Notes under the pieces: model-generated | Database searches by the model: none | What the model saw: only the letters and a program-made list of their open reading frames with translations | What the model was told of the DNA's origin: nothing | Program-made: the position numbers and the translations under genes | Shown here: positions 36,228 through 45,134 of the stretch, in pieces | Layout of the letters: each line of letters starts with the position of its first letter | Numbering within the stretch: the stretch's first letter is position 1 | DNA from: an uncultured Bacteroidia bacterium | Lineage (GTDB): Bacteria > Bacteroidota > Bacteroidia > Bacteroidales > UBA932 | Assembly: GCA_902789245.1 (NCBI GenBank) | Contig: CADAND010000001.1 | Coordinates: 186,001 to 250,000 of the forward strand | Direction of reading: 5' to 3' | DNA: 64,000 nt

Positions 36228-37249
36228 CGCCGCAGGAGCCGCAGGAGATGTTCGAGCACTTCCGCCTGGAAGTGGATCCGGGGCAGGCGCCCGTGCGGAT
36301 CGACAAATACATGTCCACCCACCTCGAGGACACTTCCCGCAACCGCATCCAGCAGGCCTTCAAGGAAGGCTACGTGCGGGTGGGGGAGACGCCCGTCAAG
36401 GCCAACTACATCGTCCGGCCCGGCGACGTGATCCGCTTCGTGATGCCCTACCGGCGCCGCGGGCTGGAGATCATCCCGCAGGAAATCCCTTTGAACATCG
36501 TCCACGAGGACGACGACGTGCTCGTGGTCAACAAGCCCGCCGGCATGGTGGTCCATCCCGGCCACGGCCACTACGAGGGCACGCTCATCAACGCCCTGGC
36601 GCACCACCTGGGCATCAGCCAGGACGCCGACGCACTCGACGAGCGCATGGGCATCCTGGTGCACCGCATCGACAAGGACACTAGCGGCCTGCTGGCCGTG
36701 GCGAAGAACGACGAGGCGCAGCTCAAGCTCGCCAAGCAGTTCTTCGACCACAGCATCGAGCGCCGCTACAACGCCATCGTCTGGGGCGACATGCCCGAGG
36801 ATGAGGGCACGGTCGAGAGCTTCATCGGCCGCGACCCGTCGGACCGCCTGCGCTTCCGCTCCGTCGAGGACGAGGAGCACGGCAAGCGCGCCGTCACGCA
36901 CTGGAGGGTGCTGGAGCGCTTCGGTTTCGTGACCCTGGTCGAGTGCAAGCTCGAGACGGGCCGCACGCACCAGATCCGCGTCCACATGGCCCAGCTGGGC
37001 CATCCCATCTTCAACGACGAACGCTACGGCGGCGCGGAGATCCGCAAGGGGACCATCTACGCCAAGTACCGCCAGTTCATCCAGAACTGCTTCGCGCTCT
37101 GCCCCCGGCAGGCGCTCCACGCCCGCACGCTGGGCTTCGCGCACCCGCGCACCGGCGCCTGGCTGCAATTCGATTCCGACCTCCCCGAGGATATGACCGC
37201 CCTCCTGGACAAATGGCGCAAATACTGCGGTCAGATGCCTGAAGAATGA
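36224..37249 (+). CDS. RluA/RluD-family 23S rRNA pseudouridine synthase with S4 domain
   Basis: 341 residues. The S4 RNA-binding domain (about 22-80, VRIDKYMSTHLEDTSRNRIQ) precedes the catalytic domain with HRIDKDTSGLLAVAKN, whose Asp is catalytic, and TGRTHQIRVHMAQLGHPIFND. This matches RluD, which modifies helix 69 of 23S rRNA, though RluC-like specificity is possible. An internal ATG at 36248 is an alternative start. It overlaps both neighbours by four bases. Confidence 0.9.
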   Translation: MTPQEPQEMFEHFRLEVDPGQAPVRIDKYMSTHLEDTSRNRIQQAFKEGYVRVGETPVKANYIVRPGDVIRFVMPYRRRGLEIIPQEIPLNIVHEDDDVLVVNKPAGMVVHPGHGHYEGTLINALAHHLGISQDADALDERMGILVHRIDKDTSGLLAVAKNDEAQLKLAKQFFDHSIERRYNAIVWGDMPEDEGTVESFIGRDPSDRLRFRSVEDEEHGKRAVTHWRVLERFGFVTLVECKLETGRTHQIRVHMAQLGHPIFNDERYGGAEIRKGTIYAKYRQFIQNCFALCPRQALHARTLGFAHPRTGAWLQFDSDLPEDMTALLDKWRKYCGQMPEE

Positions 37250-38871
37250 GAAAAACGCAAGCCCTCCTCTGGCTGCTCTCGGCGCTGTCCGCGCTCCTGC
37301 TGAGCCTTCCCTGGCTGGTACCCCACACCGGCGCGCTGGCGCTGGTCGCCTTCGTGCCGCTGCTGATCGCGGACGCCGTCTCGGACCAGCTCCGTCTCCG
37401 CGCCCGCTGGATCTGGCCCGCCTTCACCTTCGTGGCGTGGAACGCCGCCACGACCTTCTGGGTGTGCAACGCCACGGTGGGCGGCGGCCTGTTCGCCATT
37501 TTCGGCAACGCCGTGCAGATGCTCGCGGTCTGGCTCCTCTTCCGCCTGGCGAAGAAGAAGATGGGCGGCGCGCTGCCCTACATCTTCCTCGCGGCCATGT
37601 GGATCGCCTGGGAGCGGCACTACTTCGACGTGGACATCTCCTGGCCCTGGCTCACGCTCGGCGGTGCTTTCGCGCGCAGCACGCGCACGGTCCAGTGGTA
37701 CGAGTACACCGGCATGCTCGGCGGCTCGCTCTGGGTCTGGGTGGCGAACCTCGGCATCTACGGCCTGCTCGTGGCCGTCTCCGACGGGCTCTGGCAGCGC
37801 TGGAACGGCCTCGCCCGCGCCTGTGCCTCGATTGGCATCGTTCTGGTCGTTGCCGGTCCGGTGGTGGCCTCCAAGCTGATCTGGGATGCGTATGAGGAGC
37901 GCTCCGAGGCCACGCTGGACGTGATCATCGGCCAGCCCAACTTCGACCCTTACGAGAAATTCCAATCCCTCACGCAGGCCCAGCAGACCGACATCCTGCT
38001 GGGACAGTTCGACGAACTGCTCGCGCACCGCACGGACAAGCCCGTGCTCCTGCTCGCGCCCGAAACCTTCACCGGCGACGTCATCCTGAACGAGCCGGAG
38101 CAGTCCGCCACCCTGCAGCGCGTCCGCGCCTTCCTGACGGAGCACCCCGGCGCGGAGATGCTCTTCGGCGCCAGCACCTACGACATCTACGACACCCACG
38201 CGGCGCCGACCCTGCTCGCCCGGCCGTACGGCGGGGGCTGGATCGTCTCGCACAACAGCGCCCTCATGGCCCGGCCGGAGGGCCCGGTCGAGGTCTATCA
38301 CAAGAGCAAGCTGGTGGTCGGCACGGAGCTGACCCCTTACCCCCGGATTTTCGTCCCGTTGGACAACTGGCTCTCCGCCCGGATGAACGTCGGTGGCCTG
38401 ATGGGCCGCTGCGTTGGACAGGACGGCGTGTCGCTGCTGCACTTCGGCCCGCAGCGCGTGCCCCTCGGTTGCGCCGTCTGCTATGAATCCGTCTATGGAG
38501 AATACTGCGCGCAATACGTGCGCGCCGGGGCCCGTGCCCTGACCGTCATCACCAACGACGCCTGGTGGGGCAATACCCCCGGCTACCGTCAGCACCTCAG
38601 CTACGCCGCGCTGCGCGCCATCGAGCTGCGGCGCGACATCGCCCGCTGCGGCAACACGGGCATCTCCGCCTTCATCGACCAGCGCGGCGAGATCCTCGAG
38701 ACCTCCGACTGGTGGACCCGCGAGACGCTGTCCGGCACGGTCAACCTCTCCTCGGAGCAGACGCTCTTCGTGAAGCACGGCGACATCGCCGGCCGCGTCT
38801 GTACGCTGGTTTTCCTGATTCTCGCCGCACTGCTCCTCGTCCGCCTCTTCGTGCCCGCGAAGCAATCTTAG
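37246..38871 (+). CDS. lnt: Apolipoprotein N-acyltransferase
   Basis: 541 residues. About six to seven N-terminal membrane helices, a periplasmic nitrilase-like domain (about 222-500) and a final helix (about 515-535). The Glu-Lys-Cys triad is present: Glu273 (LLAPETF), Lys353 (YHKSKLV) and Cys412 (GCAVCYES). It adds the third acyl chain to lipoproteins in the inner membrane. The end of the operon is followed directly by the repeat array that precedes the RAYT gene. Confidence 0.93.
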   Translation: MRKTQALLWLLSALSALLLSLPWLVPHTGALALVAFVPLLIADAVSDQLRLRARWIWPAFTFVAWNAATTFWVCNATVGGGLFAIFGNAVQMLAVWLLFRLAKKKMGGALPYIFLAAMWIAWERHYFDVDISWPWLTLGGAFARSTRTVQWYEYTGMLGGSLWVWVANLGIYGLLVAVSDGLWQRWNGLARACASIGIVLVVAGPVVASKLIWDAYEERSEATLDVIIGQPNFDPYEKFQSLTQAQQTDILLGQFDELLAHRTDKPVLLLAPETFTGDVILNEPEQSATLQRVRAFLTEHPGAEMLFGASTYDIYDTHAAPTLLARPYGGGWIVSHNSALMARPEGPVEVYHKSKLVVGTELTPYPRIFVPLDNWLSARMNVGGLMGRCVGQDGVSLLHFGPQRVPLGCAVCYESVYGEYCAQYVRAGARALTVITNDAWWGNTPGYRQHLSYAALRAIELRRDIARCGNTGISAFIDQRGEILETSDWWTRETLSGTVNLSSEQTLFVKHGDIAGRVCTLVFLILAALLLVRLFVPAKQS

Positions 38872-38881
38872 AACAGGCCTA

Positions 38882-38909
38882 CCTCCACAACGCCCCCGCA
38901 CGGCAAGCC
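38882..38909. repeat. 28-bp dispersed repeat shared with 51612-51639
   Basis: CCTCC, a variable base, CAACGCC, two variable bases, then CGCACGGCAAGCC. There are three mismatches between copies. Both copies lie just downstream of the end of a plus-strand gene. Confidence 0.55.
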
Positions 38910-38920
38910 ATCCGTTGTTC

Positions 38921-39083
38921 GCCGCCGGTAACTCATTTTCCCGCTTGCGAGGGGCGCTGGAGGGGTGTTTTGCCCCTGGCAACTCATTTTTCCGGTTGCG
39001 AGGGGCGCTGGAGGGGTGTTTCGCCCCCGGCGACTCATTTTTCCGATTGCGAGGGGCGGAAAGGGGTCTCAGCGCCCCTGGCA
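38921..39083 (+). repeat. 51-bp-period palindrome array B1 upstream of the RAYT gene
   Basis: Units begin at 38921, 38972, 39023 and a partial one at 39074, exactly 51 bp apart. A unit starts GCCCCTGGCAACTCATTT, continues TTCCGGTTGCGAGGGGC and then GCTGGAGGGGTGTTTT. GCCCC..GCAAC pairs with GTTGC..GGGGC to form a hairpin. Units differ at scattered sites. Confidence 0.88.
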
Positions 39084-39247
39084 CTGCTCAAATCATCCTA
39101 TTCTCCGCTCGATTCCGCGTTAAACGTACGTTTTTTATCGCGACACAGAATCGACAAAGCGCTCATTATCAGAATGAGAAGTATCTAATTCAAAATTAAA
39201 CGATTAATCGGGAAATAAAACGACTGAGAATCCGTATTATTGCCCAC
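39084..39247. other. AT-richer spacer upstream of the RAYT gene
   Basis: 164 bp without a gene; the base composition drops compared with lnt. No clear TAnnTTTG box is visible, so I cannot say how the RAYT gene is expressed. Confidence 0.4.
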
Positions 39248-40189
39248 ATGAACGACACTAAACTGAATCGTCCGCCTTCGTTCGGGGAACGGGAGCGGCA
39301 ATGTGAAGAACTCTTTCTCTCCCGAGGTCCCTTCTTCCACCTGTGTACTCCGGGAGATGACACGCTGATTCTATTTGAATCAGAAGAGGATTTTTGTTTT
39401 TCCATGAATCTGATCGCGCTGGTAGCGCATCTGACTCCGGGCGTCCGAATCATTACCTTCGAGGTGATGGGATCCCATATACATATTGTTGCGGAGGGGG
39501 CTGCCAGCAGCTTGAAGGATGGGTTCGGGCAAATCCGGAAGCGGCTGTACCGTTATTACCATTCAACCGGACGGGTTCGGAATCTGGATGATTTTCAGGC
39601 CAATATCATTCCGATCGGGGATCTGGCCTTCCTGCGGAACTCCATCGCGTATGTGAACAGGAACGGCTATCTCGTCCATCCGGAACATACTCCGTTCTCC
39701 TACCCTTGGGGCGCCAACCGTTTTTATTTCAATCCTGACGCCAAACGGCGGAACGACAGGTACTACCGCGATCTGACCTACGACGAGAAACGGCATCTGT
39801 TCCGGAGCAATTCCATTGAATATCCTGAAAGACATGCACTTGTGGATGGGTATATTTCTCCTGCCAGCTTCTGTGATTTGGAACTGGGAGAAGGATTGTT
39901 CCGGAATGCGCGGCACTATTTCTCGCTGGTATCCCGAAGCGTCGAAGGGTATCAGGACATAGCCAAACTGCTGGGGGATCAATTCTTCTGCACTGATGAC
40001 GAGCTGTTTACCATTGTCCGTCAAATCAGCAAAGACAAATATGGATCTTCTCGCCTGGACACCCTTCCTCCGGAGTGCAAGAAAGCACTGGCCAAAACGA
40101 TGTACTATGAATATAAAGCCAGTTCCCAGCAGATTCATCGCATGCTGAGAGTCCCCGAAAGCGATATTCGTTTGCTCCTGGGGAAATAA
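39248..40189 (+). CDS. REP-associated tyrosine transposase-like protein (RAYT, Y1 HUH family)
   Basis: 313 residues. The Y1-transposase pattern is clear: FEVMGSHIHIVAEG carries the HUH pair His77 and His79, and FLRNSIAYVNRNGYLVHPEH followed by PFSYPWGAN matches the RAYT helix whose Tyr (Tyr135 here) makes the covalent DNA link. The C-terminal region (LAKTMYYEYKASSQQIHRML) looks like the helix-turn-helix tail of RAYTs. At 313 residues it is longer than many RAYTs. Base composition and codon use are visibly AT-richer than all neighbours, suggesting acquisition. Palindrome arrays with 51-bp period flank it on both sides in the same orientation, as expected for a RAYT and its REP substrates. Confidence 0.82.
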   Translation: MNDTKLNRPPSFGERERQCEELFLSRGPFFHLCTPGDDTLILFESEEDFCFSMNLIALVAHLTPGVRIITFEVMGSHIHIVAEGAASSLKDGFGQIRKRLYRYYHSTGRVRNLDDFQANIIPIGDLAFLRNSIAYVNRNGYLVHPEHTPFSYPWGANRFYFNPDAKRRNDRYYRDLTYDEKRHLFRSNSIEYPERHALVDGYISPASFCDLELGEGLFRNARHYFSLVSRSVEGYQDIAKLLGDQFFCTDDELFTIVRQISKDKYGSSRLDTLPPECKKALAKTMYYEYKASSQQIHRMLRVPESDIRLLLGK

Positions 40190-40195
40190 CACGCT

Positions 40196-40333
40196 GCCAG
40201 GGGCAAAACGATGTGTTTTCGCCCCTGGCAACTCATTTTTCCGGTTGCGAGGGGCGCTGGAGGGGTTTTTTGCCCCTGGCGACCATTTTTCCCGGTCACC
40301 AGGGGCGGAAAGGGGCCCCAGCGCCCCTGCAGA
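40196..40333 (+). repeat. 51-bp-period palindrome array B2 downstream of the RAYT gene
   Basis: An inverted GCCAGGGGC (40196-40204) faces the first unit through an AAAAC/GTTTT stem; units start at 40221 and 40272 with a partial at 40323, again 51 bp apart. The second unit forms a near-perfect hairpin, GCCCCTGGCGACC against GGTCACCAGGGGC. Confidence 0.88.
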
Positions 40334-40341
40334 ATCCCCGT

Positions 40342-41010
40342 TTAGAGCTTCCAGTCGATCGGCGCCTGGCCGTGGGCGATGAGGTAGTCGTTGCAGCGGG
40401 AGAAGTGCCGGCAGCCGAAGAAGGCGCCGCGGGCGAGGGGCGAAGGGTGCGCCGCCTCGAGCACGAGGTGGCGCGAAGTGTCGATAAGCGGCGCCTTCCC
40501 GCGGGCGTAGTTGCCCCAGAGCAGGAAGACGACCCCCTCGCGCCGCTCGGAGACGGTGCGGATGACCGCGTCGGTGAAGGTCTGCCAGCCGATGCCGCCG
40601 TGCGAGGTGGGCTCGCCCGCCCGCACCGTCAGCACGGCGTTGAGCAGCAGCACGCCCTGCCGCGCCCAGGGCGTCAGGTCCGGGCTGCCGGACATCTGCA
40701 CGCCGAGGTCGGACTCGATTTCCTTGAAGATGTTCTTGAGCGAAGGCGGCGCCGGCACGCCCTGCGGCACGCTGAAACACAGGCCCATGGCCTGGCCGTA
40801 GCCGTGGTAGGGGTCCTGCCCCAGGATCACGACCTGGGTCCGGTCCAGCGGGCAGAGGTCGAAGGCCCGGAAGATCTCCCCGCCCGGCGGGAAAATGGTG
40901 CGCCCCGCCGCCTTCTCGGCATGCAGCTGCTGCGCCAGGGCGGCGAAATAGGGCTGGTCAAATTCGTGCTGGAGCGCTTCGCGCCAGGAGGCTTCGATTT
41001 TTACGGTCAT
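40342..41010 (-). CDS. ung: Uracil-DNA glycosylase, family 1
   Basis: 222 residues, standard length. The water-activating loop is GQDPYHGYGQA with Asp66, and the C-terminal HPSPL has catalytic His188; the Ser-Pro and Leu intercalation loops are in place. It removes uracil from DNA to start base-excision repair. It is divergent from coaD, and its stop lies nine bases beyond array B2. Confidence 0.96.
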   Translation of the reverse strand: MTVKIEASWREALQHEFDQPYFAALAQQLHAEKAAGRTIFPPGGEIFRAFDLCPLDRTQVVILGQDPYHGYGQAMGLCFSVPQGVPAPPSLKNIFKEIESDLGVQMSGSPDLTPWARQGVLLLNAVLTVRAGEPTSHGGIGWQTFTDAVIRTVSERREGVVFLLWGNYARGKAPLIDTSRHLVLEAAHPSPLARGAFFGCRHFSRCNDYLIAHGQAPIDWKL

Positions 41011-41013
41011 ACT

Positions 41014-41022
41014 CCAAATATA
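41014..41022 (-). promoter_or_regulatory. -7 box for ung
   Basis: Minus strand TATATTTGG, three bases upstream of the ATG at 41010. Confidence 0.45.
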
Positions 41023-41035
41023 CGCAATTTTTCCC

Positions 41036-41043
41036 TATATTTG
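41036..41043 (+). promoter_or_regulatory. -7 box for the coaD operon
   Basis: TATATTTG, six bases before the coaD ATG. Confidence 0.5.
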
Positions 41044-41049
41044 TTTGTT

Positions 41050-41523
41050 ATGAAAACAATAGCTCTCTTCCCGGGATCTTTCGACCCGTTCACTGCGGGC
41101 CATCTCAATATCCTCGGCCGTGCGCTGACGATGTTCGACGAAGTCGTCGTCGCCGTCGGTATCAACCAGGACAAGCGCGGCTTCTTCACCAACGAGCAGA
41201 AGATCGACATTATCCGCCAGGCCACGGCCCCGCTGGGCGAGCGCGTGCGCATCATCTCGTACGACTGCCTGACCATCGACATCTGCCGCCAGCTCGGCAT
41301 CCGCCATATCGTGCGGGGCATCCGCAACATGATGGACTTCGACAACGAGAAGGCCATCGCGGACGCCAACCGCCGCCTCGCCCCCGAGATCGAGACCATC
41401 ATCATCCCGACGGCGCAGGAATTCGCCCACATCTCCTCTTCCGCCGTGCGCGACCTTCTCCGCCACCACGGCGACACCAGTCAGTTCTTGCCCGAAGGGG
41501 TCGTCCTGCCCGAAGCCTTATGA
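41050..41523 (+). CDS. coaD: Phosphopantetheine adenylyltransferase
   Basis: 157 residues. The nucleotidyl-transferase motif TAGHLNIL (His18) follows FPGSFDPF, and RGIRNMMDFDNEKAIADANR and ISSSAVRDLL match the family. It catalyses the penultimate step of coenzyme A synthesis. Its stop overlaps the start of the thioredoxin-like gene by four bases (ATGA). Reading upstream of 41050 is antisense to ung. Confidence 0.96.
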   Translation: MKTIALFPGSFDPFTAGHLNILGRALTMFDEVVVAVGINQDKRGFFTNEQKIDIIRQATAPLGERVRIISYDCLTIDICRQLGIRHIVRGIRNMMDFDNEKAIADANRRLAPEIETIIIPTAQEFAHISSSAVRDLLRHHGDTSQFLPEGVVLPEAL

Positions 41524-42341
41524 GAAGATTCGTCCTGCTGCTCGCCCTGCTCTGCGGCCTGACCGCCCGTGCGCAAGCCCCCGCCGACTCGCTGGAGGCG
41601 GCCCGCTACGCCCCGCTGGACAGCCTGCTGACGCAGTTCTACGGCGCGCTGCTCTACGACGATATCGAGACGAAGAATGCCGAATTCGACAACCTGATCG
41701 CTTCCTGCACCGACTCGCTGATGCGCCAGCACGTGGCGCTCACTGTCTTCGACCACTACCGCTACAGCCGCGTGATGGGCGAGGAAGCCGTGGCCGTCCA
41801 CCTCTACGACGAGTGGATCGCCACGGGCAAGGTCCAGCCGCGCAGCGAGTTCGAGCTCTTCGAAGCGGAGCGCTTCTCGCTCGAGCACCGCAGCACCCTG
41901 ATCGGCATGCGCGCGCCGAAGCTGACCCTGCGCACGCCCTGCGGCGGCCGCCGCACCATCCCGGTGGACGACCGCGCCTGCGTGCTGATGTTCTACTCGC
42001 CGGAGTGCTCGAAATGCCGCCTGGAGGCCATCGCGCTGCCCTCCGTGCTCGACAAGGTGGAGTTCCCGATGAACTTCTACGCCATCGACGTGGACGCCGA
42101 CAAGCGGGCCTTCAAGGCCTTCCGCAAGTCGCTGAAAACCAAGAATAAGAAGGTCAAGATGATCCACCTCTGGGACCCGGAGTCGGAGACCACCCTGCTG
42201 CTCGACTACGGCGTCTTCTCCACGCCCAAGATCTTCGTGGTCTGGGAAGGAGAGATCCTCGGGCGGCGCCTGGAGATGGACAGCCTGCAGGAAATCATCC
42301 AATACATCAACATGCTCTATGGCCAGGAAAAAGAAGAGTAG
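41520..42341 (+). CDS. Exported thioredoxin-like protein
   Basis: 273 residues. A signal peptide of about 19 residues (ending ARAQ) is followed by an alpha-helical region (25-120) and a TlpA/AhpC-type thioredoxin domain (about 128-268). The redox motif is CSKC (Cys163, Cys166) in FYSPECSKCRLEA and the cis-Pro lies in FSTPKIFVV. The architecture resembles DUF5106-type TlpA proteins of Bacteroidota. It probably acts as a periplasmic disulfide reductase. Coupled to coaD; the next small gene overlaps its end by 23 bases. Confidence 0.83.
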   Translation: MRRFVLLLALLCGLTARAQAPADSLEAARYAPLDSLLTQFYGALLYDDIETKNAEFDNLIASCTDSLMRQHVALTVFDHYRYSRVMGEEAVAVHLYDEWIATGKVQPRSEFELFEAERFSLEHRSTLIGMRAPKLTLRTPCGGRRTIPVDDRACVLMFYSPECSKCRLEAIALPSVLDKVEFPMNFYAIDVDADKRAFKAFRKSLKTKNKKVKMIHLWDPESETTLLLDYGVFSTPKIFVVWEGEILGRRLEMDSLQEIIQYINMLYGQEKEE

Positions 42342-42561
42342 CAAGAAATTCGCCGGCGTCGATCCCGCCTACCTCGACAAGCAGCGCGCCTCGCTACGCC
42401 GCATCCACCGCAAGTCCGTGCTTTTCAACGAGCAGGAGCTCGCGGCCATCGACACGTATTGCAAGCGCTTCAAGGTCGGCTCGCGCTCCGCGCTGATCCG
42501 CCAGGCGGTGATGGAGCGCGTCCTGGAAGGGCTCGAGGAGAGCCATCCGAAGTTGTTCTAA
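42319..42561 (+). CDS. Small basic protein, probable ribbon-helix-helix type
   Basis: 80 residues. A Lys-rich start (MARKKKSSKKF) precedes a segment VLFNEQELAAIDTYCKRFKVGSRSALIRQAV that fits the strand-helix-helix of MetJ/Arc DNA-binding folds. There is no toxin gene beside it, so an antitoxin role is not supported. It overlaps the thioredoxin gene by 23 bases. Array B3 begins nine bases after its stop. Confidence 0.65.
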   Translation: MARKKKSSKKFAGVDPAYLDKQRASLRRIHRKSVLFNEQELAAIDTYCKRFKVGSRSALIRQAVMERVLEGLEESHPKLF

Positions 42562-42569
42562 AGAAATAC

Positions 42570-42705
42570 GCCAGGGGCGCTGAGGCCCCTTCCCGCCCCT
42601 GGTGACCGGAAAATCCAGTCGCCAGGGGCAAAACACCCCTCCGGCGCCCCTGGTGACCGAAAAAAACAGTTGCCAGGGGCGAAAACATATCGTTTTGCCC
42701 CTGGC
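42570..42705 (-). repeat. 51-bp-period palindrome array B3, inverted copy of B2
   Basis: GCCAGGGGC starts at 42570, 42621 and 42672 (51-bp steps) and ends with an inverted GCCCCTGGC at 42697-42705. Read on the minus strand it follows array B2 almost base by base, including the facing end unit. Confidence 0.88.
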
Positions 42706-42731
42706 AATAAAGGTTTGGTGACTCCGCCCGA

Positions 42732-45134
42732 CTAGAAGATGAAGTCGATGACGTCCTGGATGGTCTTGACGTAGTGGAACTCCAGGCCGCGGATGTAGAT
42801 CTCCTTGATGTCTTCGATGTCCTTGCGGTTGTCCTCCGAGATCACGATCGTGTGGACGCCGGCGCGCTTGGCCGCCAGGATCTTCTCCTTGATGCCGCCC
42901 ACCGGCAGCACGCGGCCGCGCAGGGTCATCTCGCCCGTCATCGCGATGCCGTGCTTGATTTTCTCTCCGCGCAGCGCGGACACCATCGAGCTCACCATCG
43001 TGATACCGGCCGAGGGGCCGTCCTTCGGTGTCGCGCCCTCGGGCACGTGCACGTGCAGGTCCTTCTCCCCGAAGGTCTTGGCGTCCATCTTGGCCATCTC
43101 CGGATGCGCCTTGATGTACTGGTAGGCGATGGTCGCCGACTCCTTCATCACGTCGCCCAGGTTGCCGGTCATGGTCATCACGCCCTTGCCGCCGCTCACC
43201 GAACTCTCCACGAAGAGGATCTCGCCGCCCATCTGGGTCCAGGCGAGGCCCGTGACCACGCCCGGGGCTTCGTTGCCCTTCTGCAGGTCGTGGAAGTTGG
43301 TCGGCAGGCCGAGGTACTCCTTCAGGTGCTCCTTCTTGATGACGGAGGGGTACTCCTGCTCCATCGCGATCTTCTTCGCGGTCACGCGGGCAATCTTCGC
43401 GATCTGCTTCTCCAGGCCGCGCACGCCCGACTCGTGGGTGTACTCGTCGATGATGGCAGCGAGGGCCGCGCGGTCGATCTTGAGCGCGTCCTTCTTGATG
43501 CCGTGCTCCTCCAGCTGCTTGGGCACGAGGAACTTCTTGGCGATCTCCATCTTCTCCTCGGCGAGGTAGCCCGTCACGTTGATGAGCTCCATGCGGTCCA
43601 GCAGGGCCGACTGGATGGGGGCGGTGCTGTTGGCCGTGGTGATGAAGAGGACGTTGCTCAGGTCGTAGTCCTGGTCCAGATAATTATCGTGGAAGGTGGC
43701 GTTCTGCTCGGGGTCGAGCGCCTCCAGCAGTGCGGAGGACGGGTCGCCCTTGAAGTCGGCCGCCAGCTTGTCCACTTCGTCCAGCACGATCACCGGGTTG
43801 GAGGTGCCGGCCCGGGCGATGCCGTTCAGGATACGGCCCGGGAGGGCGCCCACGTAGGTCTTGCGGTGGCCGCGCAGCTCGGCTTCGTCATGCATGCCGC
43901 CCAGGGCGATACGCACGTACTTGCGCCCGAGCGCCTTGGCGATGGACTTGCCCAGCGAGGTCTTGCCCACGCCCGGAGGGCCGTAGAGGCAGAGGATGGG
44001 GGACTTCATGTTCCCCTTCAGCTTGAGCACCGCGAGGTACTCGATGATGCGGTCCTTGACCGTGTCCAGCCCGTAGTGGTCCCCGTCGAGGACCTTCTGG
44101 GCATGTTTGAGGTCCAGGTTGTCCTGGCTCATTTCGCCCCAGGGGAGGTCGAGCATGAACTCCAGGTAGTTGTACTGGACGCTGTAGTCCGGCGAGGACG
44201 GGTTGTATTTCTCGAGCTTGGCAAGCTCCTTGTTGAAGGCCTCGCCGATCTCCTTGGGCCATTTCTTCTTGGCGGCGCGCTCGCGGAACTTGTCGAACTC
44301 CTCGGCGTCGTCCATGCCCAGCTCCTCCTGGATGGTCCGGAGCTGGTTGTTGAGGTAGTACTCGCGCTGCTGCTGGTCGATCTCGCTCTTGACCTTCTGG
44401 TTGATCTCCTGCTTGATCTTCATCAGCTCCACCTGGGAGTCCAGCACGGAGAGCAGCTTGAGGCCGCGCACGCGGACGTCGTCGTACTCCAGCAGCTGGA
44501 TCTTCGACTCGAAGTTCTCCACCTCGATGGTGGTAGCGATGAAGTTCACGAGGAACTTGAAATCGTCGATCGCCTTCAGCGCGCCGATGGTCTCGCGCGT
44601 GCCGATGTTGCTCGCGCGCAGCAGGTGGATCGCCTTGTCCTTCAGGGACTCGGCGATCGCCTTGATGTCCGTGCTGTGCTGGTCCTCCGTCAAGATGTCA
44701 GGGAGGTAGTGCACGCGTGCGGTGATATAAGGTTCGTAGCCGAGCACGGCGTCCATCGCCAGGCGCTTGAACGCCTGGAGGATGGCCGTGATCGTGCCGT
44801 CCGGCATCTCGAGGGTCTTCAGGACCTTGCACACCGAGCCGTAGTGGCTCAGGTCTTCCTCCTGCGGCTCTTCCACCATCACGTCGTTCTGCGGCACGGC
44901 GCCGATGAAGAAACCTTCCTTCTCGGCGTCCTGGATCAGGCGGACGGACTTCTCGCGTCCGATCGTGATCGGAAACACGGCGCCCGGGAAGAGCACCGCG
45001 TTGCGGAGCGCGAGCACCGGGAGGATCTCCGGGAGTTCGGACTCGTCTATCTTCAGCAGGCCTTCTCCCTGCATAACGGGAATGATGCTGACTTCTGCGC
45101 CAGCGGGGAGGGTGAATTCTTTATCTTGTCTCAT
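42732..45134 (-). CDS. lon: ATP-dependent protease Lon
   Basis: 800 residues. The N-terminal substrate domain begins with the [20 protein letters not shown] motif, the AAA domain carries Walker [12 protein letters not shown] and Walker [10 protein letters not shown], and the C-terminal protease domain has the catalytic Ser in [11 protein letters not shown] with the Lys further on. It degrades misfolded and regulatory proteins in the cytoplasm. It is divergent from the HU gene and its end lies 27 bp from array B3. Confidence 0.97.

Follow-up and report, generated by a model that had tools for sequence, protein, structure and literature searches.

How REP sequences spread, and how a REP-associated tyrosine transposase (RAYT) recognizes the REPs that belong to it, is to our knowledge poorly understood. 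The question is raised by a locus in the 64,000-nt stretch of DNA analysed here (the window), which comes from an uncultured Bacteroidia bacterium. A first-pass annotation had recognized a Y1/HUH protein (His77-x-His79, Tyr135) between two arrays of hairpins, the arrangement of RAYT genes with their REP substrates. Is the gene a RAYT, and are these arrays its REPs? We conclude, with a probability of roughly 0.82, that the locus is a REPtron in which a RAYT (TnpA-REP) gene is accompanied by hairpin repeats of its own, that it represents a diverged branch known to date from no genus but that of the window, and that its protein would bind and cut single-stranded DNA and transfer units of it. The features of the locus are as follows:

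38872–40341, no strand: the gene with both flanking arrays, the block missing in the relative G008 (end points approximate)
from about 38897, forward strand: a weaker, eroded unit left of array 1
38946–39083, forward strand: array 1, three hairpins at 51-nt pitch, two with "mid" loops and then an inverted-loop cap
39248–40189, forward strand: RAYT-like HUH/Y1 transposase gene, 313 aa, with H77, H79 and Y135
40195–40332, forward strand: array 2, a 138-nt element of three hairpins (left cap, mid, right cap)
42569–42706, reverse strand: array 3, a gene-less 138-nt element with the hairpin order of array 2, between an 80-aa gene and lon

The neighbouring open reading frames are, we presume, lnt (37246–38871, forward strand) and udg (40342–41010, reverse strand). 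Tandem Repeats Finder reported a period of 51 at 38918–39058 (score 226) and at 40216–40315 (score 121), and the repeat copies begin at 38946, 38997 and 39048 in array 1 and at 40195, 40246 and 40297 in array 2. The unit consists of a hairpin (TGC.AGGGGC / GCCCCTGGCA) with a 16-nt loop, plus a 15-nt spacer; its pattern was matched five times in the window against 0.08 expected, while a looser pattern of the arms was not above chance there (30 matches against 27.5). Arrays 2 and 3 have the same loops, AAAACGATRTGTTTTC in the left cap, GCYGGAGGGGTKTTTT in the mid and GGRAAGGGGCCYCAGC in the right cap, and total 138 nt each. Folded as single-stranded DNA they reach −49.2 and −48.0 kcal/mol (z = −7.8 and −7.6), which none of 200 shuffles equalled; the left cap folds alone, and mid and right cap together make up a single long hairpin of inverted-pair type, as in REPINs. 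Array 1 folds less well (z = −2.8; 2 of 200 shuffles as good). Repeat finding, repeat starts and folding all bear out the placement of the gene between two hairpin arrays of period 51. Their description as same-orientation arrays holds for the direct 51-nt units and fails for the last hairpin of each array, which has a loop of inverted type; the third array, 2.2 kb away and absent from the Tandem Repeats Finder output for the window, had been overlooked. The gene region is AT-richer than its surroundings, as had been noticed, with a GC content of 0.44–0.54 in 39100–40299 against 0.56–0.71 in the other 300-nt intervals shown. Rfam gave no match in 38800–42800. At about 39197–39247, upstream of the gene, an element around TTAAACGATTAATCGGGAAATAAAACGGCT is followed by a TAnnTTTG-like box; by eye, both recur at L014, L043, L044 and L054, and they may serve the window's clade as a common operator and promoter.

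Taken alone, the window protein has no match of note in Pfam or NCBIfam, and a PDB sequence search gave nothing useful; a Pfam Y1 search of its own genome returned two other genes, below the cut-off, and not the window gene. We assembled its family, dropping 7 of 104 ORF rows (L041, L048, L049, L068; under 270 aa) ahead of the period, hairpin-count, flank-sharing and tree analyses, which left 97 members. In their alignment, the window protein included, H77, H79 and Y135 are the sole invariant columns, which upholds the Y1/HUH assignment. The model NF047646 (REP-associated tyrosine transposase) matched 44 of the 97 members, though not the window protein, at E ≤ 0.01 (lowest E 4.3e-11), and Y1_Tnp matched 26 at the same threshold. 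A search of the PDB with the family profile found ISDra2 TnpA at E = 0.0033. The same protein was the top fold match of the predicted structure, a low-confidence model (E = 5e-4; TM 0.24 on the query, 0.49 on the target); we treat fold matches as supporting evidence because the model, built from five sequences, is poor (pLDDT 56). The model and profile matches support the reading as a RAYT and do not place the family outside the Y1 transposases.

Family matches at E ≤ 0.001 occurred in 52 of 101 genomes, all within the window genus (52 of 61, against 0 of 40 from other genera), with up to 11 in one genome; of the nine genus genomes with no match, several are incomplete. When 393 genomes of the order were searched, scores above 200 bits occurred in the window genus alone, and the best profile match outside it, at 74.7 bits, spans the N-terminal half of the profile. 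No relative of the window protein was found in viral contigs. The nearest named loci come from MAGs labelled roe deer rumen, red deer, sheep omasum and Candidatus Cryptobacteroides faecihippi. The genus is probably Candidatus Cryptobacteroides, a name we give as probable because it rests on these labels, and the host bacterium probably came from an animal gut. Its own genome has eight family matches, which we read as seven genes; one member (L048/L049, G000 C22:12821–13614) is broken into two frames. Two of eight gene pairs gave a measurable dN/dS (0.045 for L032/L064, 0.066 for L070/L040), the other six being saturated at synonymous sites, and these values indicate purifying selection on the family gene in those two pairs. 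The members L014, L043, L044 and L051 follow the apparent ends of genes that, from their translated letters, we take to be response regulators of LytTR type, and L051 carries a further palindrome, TATCTATCGCAGC..GCTGCGATAGATA.

We compared the flanks of family members at 101 loci. The upstream and downstream flanks of the same gene shared at least 20 9-mers in 56 of 95 genes (those of the 97 with both flanks at least 150 nt long), against 32 of 8930 mismatched pairs; the remaining 39 genes fell below 20. Between most gene pairs of the family the palindromes are unlike, and the stem types of the genus include that of the window and a CCGGGCAC type. With 76 of the 97 genes used, at least one repeated 8-mer was shared by 3 of 3 pairs at 80% protein identity or more, 12 of 30 at 60–80%, 3 of 34 at 50–60%, 17 of 185 at 40–50%, 30 of 588 at 30–40% and 68 of 2010 below 30%. 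The palindromes turn over together with the protein, which is the coevolution by which RAYTs and their REPs are judged. A GT[AG]G tetranucleotide stood at the hairpin foot in 4 of 58 genes, with about 6 expected by chance, and a shared loop motif was weak (GGCC in 9 of 58 loops; in 300 shuffles it averaged 1.7 and never exceeded 6, but many 4-mers were compared).

The pitch, by contrast with the stem sequence, is kept across the family, mostly if not always, and the 51-nt period is general to the gene family beyond the window locus. A significant tandem period was found in 88 of 192 flanks (up to 400 nt each) and in none of the 192 shuffled flanks: 63 at 49–53 nt (39 of them at 51), 8 at 100–104, 7 at 72–77 and 10 at other values, so that 71 of the 88 lie at 49–53 or 100–104 nt. 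Control segments, within genes or 800–1200 nt off, were periodic in 16 of 372 cases, 8 of them at 51–52. Hairpins in 193 flanks numbered 242 against 25 in shuffles, and neighbouring hairpins were spaced 49–53 nt apart in 37 of 111 cases against 0 of 1. The larger part of a midpoint-rooted tree (67 genes) holds 39 genes of the period-51 class, 10 of class 52, 13 with no period and 5 with another; the smaller part (30 genes) is mixed and contains all seven genes with a period near 74. Over the whole family 25 of the 97 genes have no period and 8 another one, a label that for L016 and L044 stems from repeats outside the hairpins, whose spacing is near 51 by eye. An exception to 51 and 102 near the window gene in the tree is a 121-nt repeat containing hairpin pairs, at L054 and on contig C73 of G058. 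A second pitch class of 72–77 nt occupies one tree part (L083, L087, L096, L106 and others), and G016 has at least seven clusters of the L083 type away from its gene. Beyond the family, 8 of 59 flanks were periodic at 30 RAYT loci of the phylum, those among the matches listed, with periods of 43, 49, 55, 56, 77, 80, 89 and 129; nine loci outside the genus were examined, and there L120 has 47/76, L122 44, L123 47/87, L125 53/60 and L117 72 nt. Because these loci show other periods, a pitch of about 51 is not universal in RAYTs. Yet it is half the value of E. coli K-12 rayT, which has a period of 101 nt (about 2 × 50.5) downstream, with a score of 83, and none upstream.

If the palindromes are REPs, copies should stand apart from the gene. 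A joined query of 14 elements against seven genomes gave 190 matches. Among the 150 of these that were listed none lay in a foreign genome, at least 11 of the 14 elements had clusters over 1.5 kb from their own gene (at least 34 such clusters), and the window's own element had at least one further cluster away from the gene. The covariance model of the hairpin that the first-pass annotation had proposed was built from the 87-nt two-hairpin unit, with at most 150 candidates scored per genome, so that its counts are lower bounds. It found at least 46 matches in the own genome, which manual merging reduced to 22 places, of which 3 lie in the window, 2 next to paralogues and 17 elsewhere. There were at least 13 matches in G058, at least 2 in G040 and at least 2 marginal ones (E 0.07–0.08) in G008, and none among the candidates scored in G015, G045, G023 and G016. 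The units thus occur elsewhere in the own genome, so that neither this search nor the protein-family search speaks against the first-pass annotation. By udg, G015 (93% identity) and G008 (90%) are nearest to the window genome, and their best family genes are just 34% and 35% identical to the window gene; those of G058 and G040 are 63% and 65% identical. Absence in G015 and G008 is not final, because these genomes are 77% and 81% complete.

The 17 dispersed places include the sister-type palindromes GGGAGC and GGGCAC, which the wider model also catches; 14 of the 17 were inspected for this, the others being 86 or 91 nt long. We aligned 18 copies ungapped (3 window rows and 15 rows from 14 of the 17 places). 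Compensatory stem changes, which mostly separate two or three related palindrome types and whose weight is limited by the relatedness of the copies, occupy 29 cells against 14.6 in shuffles, with 0 of 500 shuffles as high, and 86% of cells are paired against 34–55% when the alignment is slid. Two further measures did not exceed the shuffles: pairs with a change in both partners numbered 8 against 6.6 (as high in 113 of 500 shuffles), and pair types 17 against 20.5 (as high in 498 of 500). Under crude ORF calling, 4 of the 17 places are clear of ORFs and 13 overlap them. Three islands of the own genome (L251, L254 and L257, on G000 C7, C1 and C3) are compound, joining a window-type and a CGGGCAC-type hairpin at a centre distance of 42 nt, and look as if two REP families travel together. 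Other short palindromes (ATTCGCCGGC..GGCGAAT, ATGCCCGACCTGATCGGGCAT) stand beside the repeat islands L241, L247, L249, L251 and L257. In G016, four dispersed 52-nt arrays of the L113 type (L198–L201) lie within a longer repeated context near 74-nt-type repeats, probably larger mobile or duplicated blocks.

How does this compare with known systems? With RAYT/TnpA-REP, as in E. coli rayT with its BIME-2, the family shares the HUH and tyrosine core, flanking palindromes, gene-specific dispersed repeats and coevolution, and with K-12 rayT a downstream period close to a multiple of its own. It differs in protein length (281–331 aa, median 306, against 165 aa by coordinates for E. coli rayT) and, unlike canonical REPs, no GTAG foot was found in it. 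BIMEs alternate in orientation, and RAYT–REP coevolution is described, in the available part of PMC2817692; the window family has direct 51-nt units as well as 102-nt pairs. In the portion of PMC6006769 at hand, TnpA-Y1 subclass 2.6 (RAYT group 5) is a Bacteroidetes group with a median HuH-Y distance of 82 and the motif YIH[QN]NP; "atypical secondary structures" border its genes and recur at other sites of the genome. Host phylum, flanking structures with genomic copies and the residue at +4 (N in 96 of 97 members) agree with ours; the H79–Y135 spacing (55–58 in 91 of 97) and the residue at +5 (P in 27 of 97) do not, and on distance and motif we do not assign the family to this subclass as described there. 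The first-pass annotation, which knew of no Bacteroidales example with a 51-bp tandem unit, is weaker on this point in that Bacteroidetes RAYTs with flanking structures had been described before; that portion of PMC6006769 showed nothing on this family or pitch. REPINs of Pseudomonas SBW25 have next-neighbour peaks at 71, 110 and 184 bp, and tandem clusters beside RAYTs are known (both from the accessible part of PMC3116915), whereas here the value is about 51 across unrelated palindromes. Among the open-licence papers listed we recognized no description of such a system in Cryptobacteroides or with a 51-bp unit. We read the family as a RAYT, but not of the canonical GTAG type, because the RAYT features tested were found except for the GTAG guide, the match to family models being mixed; it works like a RAYT and very likely is one.

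Alternatively, the arrays could be intergenic satellites or terminators of palindromic sequence that grow through replication slippage, the gene being a bystander. Arrays 2 and 3 do lie at convergent gene ends, and 38800–42800 holds 10 terminator-like matches against 4.2 (sd 2.4) in shuffles. Slippage, however, predicts neither gene-specific matching flanks, nor copies on other contigs, nor one pitch across unrelated sequences, and we consider it improbable as an account of the locus. The position between convergent genes, together with the purifying selection in the two measurable pairs, would also suit a domesticated host factor, a protein whose hairpin binding now serves the management of mRNA ends or of chromosome structure and whose mobility lies in the past. 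This is the least probable of the readings, as the catalytic residues are invariant in 97 of 97 members, the palindromes differ between most gene pairs, and 9 of 61 genus genomes, several of them incomplete, give no match.

An autonomous insertion sequence of IS200/IS605 type, in which gene and flanking hairpins move as one, would account for the Y1 core and for several family genes per genome. It would also suit the relative G008, where 16 nt stand in place of window 38851–40342, the lnt and udg stop codons abut, and a block of about 1.47 kb, the gene with both arrays, is missing; the site fits an insertion or a precise loss. No array remnant was found at this empty site, so that loss by recombination between the arrays, which the first-pass annotation had thought possible from the direct repeats, is not seen at the one site read. 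The IS200/IS605 TnpA proteins (IS608, ISDra2) likewise pair a Y1 nuclease core with hairpins near the ends, but these are single end hairpins, and here there are arrays. Moreover, hairpin elements occur without the gene, and in the one genome searched for copies the other family genes are 24–59% identical to the window gene, which therefore has no recent, near-identical copy there. We think an insertion sequence still less probable than slippage. Array 3 is also missing from a relative, G011: beside lon, 42 nt separate the aligned ends there, compared with 209 nt in the window. Between udg and lon, G004 has an unrelated repeat array (L136, about 2200–2560) with a period of about 72 by eye, and since another species has an unrelated array there, the region may attract arrays.

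For the REPtron we propose binding and cutting of single-stranded DNA and transfer of units by analogy with TnpA-REP, which cuts single-stranded REP at CT or CA and joins it, GTAG acting in the choice of cut site (according to the part of PMC8266576 available). The protein would bind its own hairpin in single-stranded DNA, for example on the lagging-strand template, Tyr135 would cut beside the hairpin, and single-stranded units would be transferred to other sites. The best account of the pitch is that it equals the size of the unit that can be transferred, either a hairpin with its spacer or a 102-nt pair. End-to-end joining at the enzyme's own cut site would yield head-to-tail arrays with a fixed period whatever the stem sequence: one hairpin with its spacer placed beside an existing unit would give direct arrays of fixed pitch, and 102-nt arrays, which occur as well, would result if a pair were transferred. 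Binding, cleavage, strand transfer, mobility, the position of the cut and a 51-nt pitch set by the enzyme are what we infer from the comparisons above.

A more tentative reading, to which we give somewhat less than even odds, is that the family forms a new subclass of REP transposases, known to date from one genus, whose sequence specificity is constantly rewritten while the hairpins stay about 51 nt apart, the enzyme measuring spacing like a ruler rather than following a guide of the GTAG type. If so, the genus would be a natural library of protein–hairpin pairs that reveals the rules of recognition. A single genus offers dozens of diverged enzyme–hairpin pairs in which the stems change and the pitch is mostly constant. 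Evolution has separated sequence from spacing, and therefore comparison and hairpin swaps between enzymes can test both how the enzymes recognize their hairpins and how BIME-like arrays arose. The 101 nt of E. coli also lead one to ask whether the figure of about 51 nt per hairpin reflects a common constraint or arose by coincidence.
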